From an uncultured Treponema sp. (GTDB taxonomy: Bacteria > Spirochaetota > Spirochaetia > Treponematales > Treponemataceae), in contig CAMWTK010000005.1 of the NCBI GenBank assembly GCA_947177175.1, forward strand, positions 1 through 64,000: a stretch of 64,000 bases of DNA, written 5' to 3'. Both the position numbers and the translations under genes were made by a program. Numbering within the stretch: the first letter of the stretch is position 1; every line of letters starts with the position of its first letter. This document shows, one piece after another, positions 32,970 to 35,711 of this stretch. The notes under the pieces were generated by a model. It had not been told where the DNA came from, did no database searches, and was given only the letters and a program-made list of their open reading frames with translations.

Positions 32970-34067
32970 TTAGTATTCCAGACTGTACTTCCAGTATACC
33001 GGGATAGCAAAATCCCAGTATTTGTCAACCTTGTTGACCTCGGCCTTTGCGCCAACCGCATGTCGCTTGTTGATTTCGTAGTCAACCGCAAACGACGCAC
33101 CGTAGCCATTGCCCAAACCGTTGTCCGCAAAGTCGAACAGGAGTTTGCCCGTCGCCGTTGCCGAAAGTTTGTCCACCAAGCCGAACGAGAACGCCACCGC
33201 AGTGTAGAAATCATATCCTTCGTTGTCGTCAAAGTCGAAGTCCCATGCAAGCTCCGCATTCAGCCGGAACAAGCGCGCGTCATACGTCACATAAGTGGTC
33301 AGCAGGTCTGTATACGCCATGCCAGCATCTGCGATAAGTTTTCCAAGTTCATTTTGCCCCCAGTCATTGCCCCAAGCATGCGTGAAGCCCGCGCCAATGG
33401 AGAGTGCCTTTACCACGCCGAAGAATCCCGGCATATTGACAAACGTGCCGAACTGACGACCGCCACTGCACGGAATGCCCTGTATATTCACGCTCGCCTG
33501 AAACATATCCAAGTCAAGAATCGCGCCTGTGCCAAAGTGGAAATTATGGCCGCCGCCAAACTGATTTTTCGCGCTGTCGTAATCCATGCCGGACGGAACG
33601 GTCGCCGAAAGGCGGAGCATTTTTATCGGGCGAATCACGAACGTAAAGCCGTCGCTGCCGATGTTGCCCGCCGTCGCGTTGTCGTCCCAAATCGGGAAAT
33701 ACGAGCCGTCTGCCCAAATGGTATCGTGCAGGCCGAGCGTAATCATGTCAATCGGGCGGAACTCAAGCCACCAGTCATTGATTTCGCCGCTGAGATAAAA
33801 ATGATCCGCATCCCGGTCCTGCCCAAAATAGAGCGTCCCTTTTATGCCGGCATCGACCTTGGCAGTCTTGATGTCCGCATACATCCGCTCCTTGATGCCG
33901 GGAAAATATGCGTCCGTTTTATACTCGCCGTCTTTGTTATCATCATGATGACGCAAGAACGGATCGTCCGAATACAATTTATTGTAGAAATCCACCTGAA
34001 CGTCTGCAAAGGCTACCCCCCCCCAGACAGCCGCAACAGCGACCATGCTCGCAAGAATCCTTTTCAT
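32970..34067 (-). CDS. Outer-membrane beta-barrel protein with poly-G tract in signal peptide
   Basis: This 365-aa exported protein has a clear signal peptide (residues 1 to about 21, ending GVAFA) and a mature part rich in alternating aromatic/polar strands, ending in Tyr, as in outer-membrane barrels. It is a treponeme-like porin or surface protein of unknown substrate. The coding strand has nine consecutive G (34016-34024 as C on the plus strand) inside the signal peptide, encoding WGG; slippage there would shift frame. At the present length the gene is in frame. ATG 34067 has GGAGG upstream. A consensus promoter and a leader of about 115 nt with three stem-loops precede it. Confidence 0.8.
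   Translation of the reverse strand: MKRILASMVAVAAVWGGVAFADVQVDFYNKLYSDDPFLRHHDDNKDGEYKTDAYFPGIKERMYADIKTAKVDAGIKGTLYFGQDRDADHFYLSGEINDWWLEFRPIDMITLGLHDTIWADGSYFPIWDDNATAGNIGSDGFTFVIRPIKMLRLSATVPSGMDYDSAKNQFGGGHNFHFGTGAILDLDMFQASVNIQGIPCSGGRQFGTFVNMPGFFGVVKALSIGAGFTHAWGNDWGQNELGKLIADAGMAYTDLLTTYVTYDARLFRLNAELAWDFDFDDNEGYDFYTAVAFSFGLVDKLSATATGKLLFDFADNGLGNGYGASFAVDYEINKRHAVGAKAEVNKVDKYWDFAIPVYWKYSLEY
34016..34024 (-). repeat. Homopolymeric G9 tract in coding sequence
   Basis: Nine C on the plus strand, which is G9 on the coding strand, lie about 45 nt downstream of the ATG of the outer-membrane protein. It is the longest G/C run noticed in the window and is placed where a length change would abolish the protein. 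Confidence 0.95.
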
Positions 34068-34100
34068 AAAAACCTCCATAAAATCGCATTCCGCAGGAAA

Positions 34101-34217: not shown

Positions 34218-34421
34218 CACAATTTGCCAAACAATTGAAAAACATTGCAGAATTTACATCTTTTTATCCTCCTTTACATTTGTCAGTCACGGACGACAAA
34301 ACTATCTCCGACAAGATTAGTTATATAACTCTAATTAAAGTTATCATGCACTAACAAATATATATTGTCAATCTCTTTCCATAAAGTGACGCGCGTTTTT
34401 GGCTATCTGCCGCTTTTCTGC
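34218..34421. other. AT-rich divergent intergenic region
   Basis: Together with the leader described separately, this makes a 366-bp gene-free stretch (34068-34433). This part is clearly more AT-rich than the genome around it, especially 34225-34380 with several ATATA and TTTAC strings. No gene is seen. It may carry further promoter or regulator sites for the two divergent outer-membrane genes. Confidence 0.5.
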
Positions 34422-34433
34422 TATGCTTGTGGC

Positions 34434-35711
34434 GTGAGATTCAACCGTTTTTTCGGTACGATTGCCGCACTCTGTTTTTTTGCCCTCCCGCTTTTCGCAC
34501 AAGAAGCCGACGTTCCGCATGACGATGCCGTAAACGCCGCGCTCGTCGTCTCGCGCATCAAAGTCAGCGGGCTAAAAAAGACGCGCCAGTCATACATGCA
34601 GTCGGTGCTCGACAAATACCGGGGGATTCCCGTGGCAGAACTTGACCTGAATGACGTGGAGATTACGTTGCGCAATCAGGGGCTTTTTTCCGATATAACG
34701 GTGAACTGCGGCACGGACGAATCGGGCTACGGCACGCTGTTCGTGACGGTGACGGAAAAAATCTCTTTTCTGCCCGTCCCGTTCGCGATGTACGCATCGG
34801 GCACGGGCTTTATGGGCGGGCTGGTCGTCATGGACACCAATGCGTTCGGCGTAAAGGACACGTACCTTGTGGGCGGCGTGTTTTCGTCGTCAAGGCAAAT
34901 GGCAATCATGGCGTTCTCCAAGCCGTCGCTCGCCCTGACCAAGCCGGGATTTTCCGTGAGCGGGTCGTTCGCGCACCGGGGGAACAAAGTACACGACGGC
35001 AACGATTCGCTCGCGCTCGCCTACCGCACGATTGGCGGCGGGGCAGAAATCTCCCTGACCGACAAACTGACCGAACACACCAACGCCTCGGTCGGACTGC
35101 GCTACGACTACACGAACATTTCGCTTGACGACGATTTTTCCGCCTATCAGGACGACCTCAAAACCTACCACGCGTTTTCCGTGAACACGGCATGGGGCGC
35201 ACGGTTTCCCCAGCTGAACGAATGGTTTTTGTCCACAAAATCCGTGCGCGTCGCCGCCCGCGCAACGTTCTTTGATTCAGGAACATGGGCGCAGTCTGCG
35301 GACGTGCAGGTTTCGGTACAGCAGAATCTTCCCGTGCGGCGGCTGCGCATGGTGGCGCAGGGCGCGGGGCATTATTCGCACGGCGCGCCCGTATCGTTGT
35401 GGGCATCGCAGAGCACCGTCGGCACGACAATCATGCCCGACAAATTCGTCAGCCAAAAAATGCTCGGCGTGAACGCCGGACTTGAATTCGCCGTGGCAAA
35501 GACGAAATTCGCCACGTTTTCGGTCTATGGATTATACGAACAGTTTTTCGGCGAGGATTTTGACGGCGACCACATGCTGAACCTCGGCTACTCCGCAGGC
35601 GCAAAAATGTATCTGGCAAAAATATCGCTTCCCGCAGTGGCGGTGGGATTTTCCCACAACGTGAGCCAAAACAATCTGAAATTCTCCGTCGCCGTCGGCA
35701 TTGGTTTTTAG
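34434..35711 (+). CDS. POTRA-containing outer-membrane barrel (BamA/TamA-like)
   Basis: This 425-aa exported protein has a signal peptide at residues 1 to about 20 (RFFGTIAALCFFALPLFA core) and then a single POTRA-like domain (about 35-110, with the typical LRNQGLFSDITV turn). It ends with a C-terminal barrel finishing in Phe. Proteins of this shape insert or secrete other outer-membrane proteins, or are themselves pores. It is far shorter than true BamA, which has five POTRA domains. The start is GTG 34434: a TGCTATGCT extended -10 box lies 6 nt upstream, with no ribosome site, and the signal peptide begins there. It diverges from the poly-G barrel gene. Confidence 0.75.
   Translation: MRFNRFFGTIAALCFFALPLFAQEADVPHDDAVNAALVVSRIKVSGLKKTRQSYMQSVLDKYRGIPVAELDLNDVEITLRNQGLFSDITVNCGTDESGYGTLFVTVTEKISFLPVPFAMYASGTGFMGGLVVMDTNAFGVKDTYLVGGVFSSSRQMAIMAFSKPSLALTKPGFSVSGSFAHRGNKVHDGNDSLALAYRTIGGGAEISLTDKLTEHTNASVGLRYDYTNISLDDDFSAYQDDLKTYHAFSVNTAWGARFPQLNEWFLSTKSVRVAARATFFDSGTWAQSADVQVSVQQNLPVRRLRMVAQGAGHYSHGAPVSLWASQSTVGTTIMPDKFVSQKMLGVNAGLEFAVAKTKFATFSVYGLYEQFFGEDFDGDHMLNLGYSAGAKMYLAKISLPAVAVGFSHNVSQNNLKFSVAVGIGF

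Follow-up and report, generated by a model that had tools for sequence, protein, structure and literature searches.

Phase variation at poly-G tracts is established in treponemes (PMC7864442, PMC10013896). T. pallidum has 46 poly-G/C tracts of at least 8, and 52% of these varied between clones (PMC10013896). In the gene for TP0969, a potential outer-membrane efflux protein, the poly-G lies at position +56 (PMC7864442), and 9 versus 8 G makes a 5' frameshift (PMC10013896). Other tracts are found in promoters: TP0126 has a poly-G between -35 and -10, tprE/G/J/L have poly-G promoters, and the tprL tract is mostly nine long in vivo (PMC7864442). Homopolymer slippage in the promoters or reading frames of surface genes is also known from Neisseria porA, hmbR and hpuA and from the poly-G contingency loci of Campylobacter jejuni (PMC4235727, PMC3786947). 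Among treponemes whose genomes have been compared, the rumen commensal T. ruminis has the fewest homopolymer tracts and was contrasted with the pathogens (PMC8049484).

Here we describe a G9 tract in a porin-like gene of an uncultured Treponema. Like the TP0969 tract, it places nine coding-strand G close to the 5' end of a gene for an outer-membrane protein, where a one-base change leads to frameshift and truncation. However, TP0969 belongs to another protein family, and its length change has been seen between clones. TP0126 and tprE/G/J/L resemble this locus in having poly-G at outer-membrane protein genes, and the spacer layout of TP0126 matches many tracts of this genome. Those tracts are transcriptional, whereas the porin-like tract is inside a reading frame. 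The Neisseria and C. jejuni loci share the principle of homopolymer slippage at surface genes but involve unrelated genes and phyla. The porin-like tract thus joins a kind of poly-G tract already known in treponemes, and the wider genome-wide set is the more interesting part.

The G9 tract and its gene

The window (the whole 64,000-nt stretch of DNA analysed) encodes on its minus strand, from 34067 to 32970, a 365-aa protein whose sequence begins MKRILASMVAVAAVWGGVAFA-DVQV..., with an export signal ahead of a 344-residue mature part. Its start codon is the ATG at 34067-34065, preceded by the Shine-Dalgarno sequence GGAGG (34073-34077, minus strand). An ORF of 369 aa begins four codons upstream of 34067; since that upstream ATG overlaps the Shine-Dalgarno sequence, the ATG at 34067 is the better start. 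The predicted signal peptide MKRILASMVAVAAVWGGVAFA occupies 34005-34067 (minus strand), with likely cleavage before DVQV, as judged from sequence reading and an alignment of relatives that have similar AFA/ASA-D/E ends and lack the W-G-G stretch.

The tract appears on the plus strand as nine C at 34016-34024 with A on either side and starts 43 nt into the gene, within the signal peptide, where the earlier note had placed it. The minus-strand frame is GCT GTC TGG GGG GGG GTA GCC TTT GCA GAC (A V W G G V A F A D), and the run spans the last two bases of TGG, both GGG codons and the first base of GTA. Translation reads through TGG GGG GGG GTA, and the present length of 9 is in frame (ON). By frame analysis, 8 G bring a TAG directly after the tract and yield a 17-aa product, while 10 G lead to a stop after 29 residues. 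Neither product is exportable as a barrel. The tract is therefore a mononucleotide run of at least 8 inside a reading frame, longer than chance would give, in which a one-base change abolishes the product, as at a translational contingency locus. The earlier note's reading that the gene is currently on, and that a one-base slip would frameshift the protein before export, agrees with these frames.

A candidate promoter, TTGACA-N17-TAGTTT, was read at 34217-34189 on the minus strand and is kept in the sister species. It contains no long G run, so any switch at this gene would be translational. We dropped a G4 in this promoter as a second, contracted switch, as the sister species has GGTG for GGGG. 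The divergent neighbour (34386-35711, plus strand) encodes an Omp85-superfamily protein (PF01103).

The product itself is barrel-like, in line with the outer-membrane protein proposed earlier. An AlphaFold model built from 19 relatives is a beta-barrel of middling confidence (pLDDT 75, pTM 0.73). Foldseek against the PDB ranked OprD/Occ porins and Campylobacter MOMP highest, with OccD2 at E 3.7e-10 and a TM of about 0.5; the barrel thus resembles solved porins. No Pfam cut-off was passed, the protein giving just a sub-threshold BCSC_C match, and Porin_4 matched weakly in 6 of the 19 relatives. We therefore call the protein porin-like and assign it to no curated porin family. From the barrel model and the porin fold matches, it is predicted to lie at the cell surface.

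Long tracts across the genome

The G9 tract is the sole G or C run longer than 5 in the window, which has 962 runs of length 3, 182 of length 4, 25 of length 5, none of 6-8 and one of 9. Dinucleotide shuffles of the window gave a mean of 1.08 G8 matches, with at least two in 31 of 100 shuffles. This shuffle alone does not exclude chance, but it is a null that overstates long runs. Markov models of order 2-5, which mirror the fall in run number with length seen in the window, do exclude it: they predict 0.007-0.045 runs of at least 9 in the window, or 0.25-1.7 (about 1) when scaled to the genome. In the genome (a Treponema MAG of 2.38 Mb), exact lengths of 7 and 8 occur 19 and 22 times and lengths of at least 9 occur 51 times, the last count omitting two poly-C stretches at contig ends. 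Base composition does not produce run counts that climb with length. GGG is moreover a disfavoured codon in this genome. The two omitted stretches, 51 nt (C7:1-51) and 25 nt (C69:1-25) at contig starts, are probably artefacts of assembly or two-colour chemistry.

Across 35 further genomes of the genus, the number of runs of at least 9 is mostly 0-16, with a maximum of 27. The genome of a sister species (G059, also a Treponema MAG) gave 63 matches for such runs, 61 of them distinct. We rejected the idea that the excess stems from lost mismatch repair because MutS and MutL domains are found in the genome; C. jejuni, in contrast, lacks mismatch repair (PMC4235727). For 10 of the 51 tracts a contig end is no more than 250 nt away, where 2.3% would be expected; Illumina assemblies are known to break at hypermutable poly-G/C tracts (PMC4235727).

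We placed the long tracts of both genomes (loci L117-L216, all but one or two included) against genes predicted by a simple codon-usage script, whose individual gene starts are approximate. Gene-start placement, defined as lying on the coding strand up to 250 nt upstream of a gene or within its first 120 nt, applies to 59 of 111 long tracts and to 90 of 483 runs of 5-6 (odds ratio 5, p about 1e-12). Two designs recur. In one, TTGACA and a -10-like hexamer enclose the tract, which occupies the spacer; 21 of 109 long tracts have a perfect TTGACA 6-12 nt upstream, compared with only 1 of 463 runs of 5-7. In the other, the tract is within the signal peptide or just after it, as in the porin-like gene. 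Most genes with either design encode outer-membrane proteins or lipoproteins that have a clear lipobox; a few are glycan genes. Promoters of the form TTGACA-N6-12-G8-TA occur in 87 of 196 congeneric genomes, while the reversed pattern has two matches in total.

Several further arrangements were seen. One congeneric genome (G138) has 20 TTGACA-poly-G promoters, several of which share the flank TTGACAAAATGGC and differ in tract length (8 or 9), which makes them a still clearer case of a promoter-switch family. G9-G11 tracts also occur in multi-copy intergenic elements (L126:4000, L128:4001, L143:4001, L164:69, L178:66, L196:4000 and L200:4001), which are often away from gene starts and have neither TTGACA nor an obvious ORF. 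Other tracts lie from a few to about 40 nt before a stop codon (L125:4002, L135:4001, L138:1369), where slippage would alter the C-terminus, as reported for Helicobacter canadensis (PMC2823697).

Length variation

The orthologue of the porin-like gene in the sister species, 83% identical in its best segment, also has a G9 tract and is ON. Thus, no length variant was seen at this tract in the one orthologue with a tract available for comparison, and no second strain of either species was found. Divergence at four-fold sites between the two species is 12%, which makes the agreement uninformative, and we do not take the shared G9 as evidence of selection. In relatives that share no more than 46% identity, the signal peptides are ordinary and lack a long G run; the tract therefore most likely originated in the line leading to the two sister species.

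Lengths do differ at loci of the same class. The lipoprotein MKKNEKLRWLMPVVALLALWGGVFLTSC has G9 and is ON here (L120), whereas its sister orthologue (L195), with 98% identical sequence, has G10 and is OFF. Two paralogues of the sister genome that start with MKKTKLSARLLACMLAVVFCAWGG likewise have G9, ON (L184), and G10, OFF (L176). Another lipoprotein (L215) has G10 and is OFF, and one at L124 and L210 has G9 yet is OFF in both species. Among orthologous promoter or upstream tracts, lengths of 9 versus 14 and 11, 11 versus 9, and 9 versus 10 were found. As the assemblies are consensus sequences, individual G9/G10 differences among these could reflect assembly error. Together with the genome-wide pattern, the ON/OFF pairs go well beyond the first reading of this locus. 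Many orthologous tract pairs have length 9 in common, in a pairing limited to sister loci chosen for a long tract and thus biased towards conserved tracts; the per-generation slippage rate may accordingly be modest. We also considered whether N's adjoining tracts in the sister MAG indicate mixed lengths and rejected this, as 2 of 62 matches the 0.86% N rate.

Discussion

We consider it probable that the G9 tract is a translational contingency (phase-variation) switch of the porin-like gene. Slipped-strand mispairing in replication would gain or lose one G. At 9 G the signal peptide and the barrel would be read in one frame, giving an exportable protein (ON); at 8 or 10 G translation would stop after 17 or 29 residues and yield no exportable barrel (OFF). 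A second slip would bring the ON state back. Such reversible slippage at this tract may benefit the population through a mixed surface under immune, phage or nutrient pressure. Given the MutS and MutL domains and the many orthologous pairs at length 9, the switch may operate at a modest rate.

Could the run instead be incidental, in a signal peptide that happens to encode W-G-G-V with GGG codons, somewhat mutable but not selected as a switch? Dinucleotide shuffles permit such a run, and the tract is equally long in both species, although at 12% four-fold divergence this conservation is uninformative. We regard an incidental run as unlikely, since it leaves aside the genome-wide excess, the strong bias to gene starts, the coding strand and surface genes, the disfavour of GGG codons in this genome and the ON/OFF length differences at loci of the same class. 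Those length differences also bear on the idea that RNA polymerase or the ribosome slips on a fixed G9 and so lowers or tunes expression with the DNA unchanged. Length 9 is common to most orthologous tracts, and MutS and MutL are present, as this idea would have it. However, out-of-frame G10 tracts of the same class and orthologous promoter tracts of 9, 11 and 14 indicate that DNA length changes, and a tract between -35 and -10 can be understood only if its DNA length matters; slippage on a fixed tract is thus very improbable. A sequencing or assembly artefact, arising from poly-G calls of two-colour Illumina chemistry, is largely refuted and equally hard to credit. The poly-C stretches with which contigs C7 and C69 begin do look artefactual, but the G9 tract is internal to a 71-kb contig, keeps its reading frame open and is found again at this position in a separate assembly, that of another species in which the flanks have diverged. 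A contingency switch therefore remains our preferred explanation.

What does the genome-wide set say about the lineage? The relatives Treponema sp. JC4 and the RUI isolates point to a gut habitat, and the genus appears to include rumen and gut treponemes. The present lineage does not fit the contrast drawn between T. ruminis and the pathogens. A literature search of incomplete coverage found no published poly-G switching in this Treponema group. On balance, we favour the view that a presumably commensal gut Treponema lineage has a poly-G phasome the size of that of T. pallidum, in which about 50-60 tracts of at least 9 switch lipoproteins, outer-membrane barrels and some glycan genes via promoter-spacer and signal-peptide tracts.

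If this is true, poly-G phase variation on a large scale would characterise host-associated treponemes in general rather than mark out pathogens. The syphilis spirochaete, in which poly-G switching has been documented, does not lend itself easily to manipulation. A surface-directed set of tracts in a related non-syphilis lineage makes its role in the gut, whether against phage or host antibodies or in the use of nutrients, testable. Whether poly-G switching is ancestral in the group likewise becomes testable, and the porin signal peptide offers a clear example.
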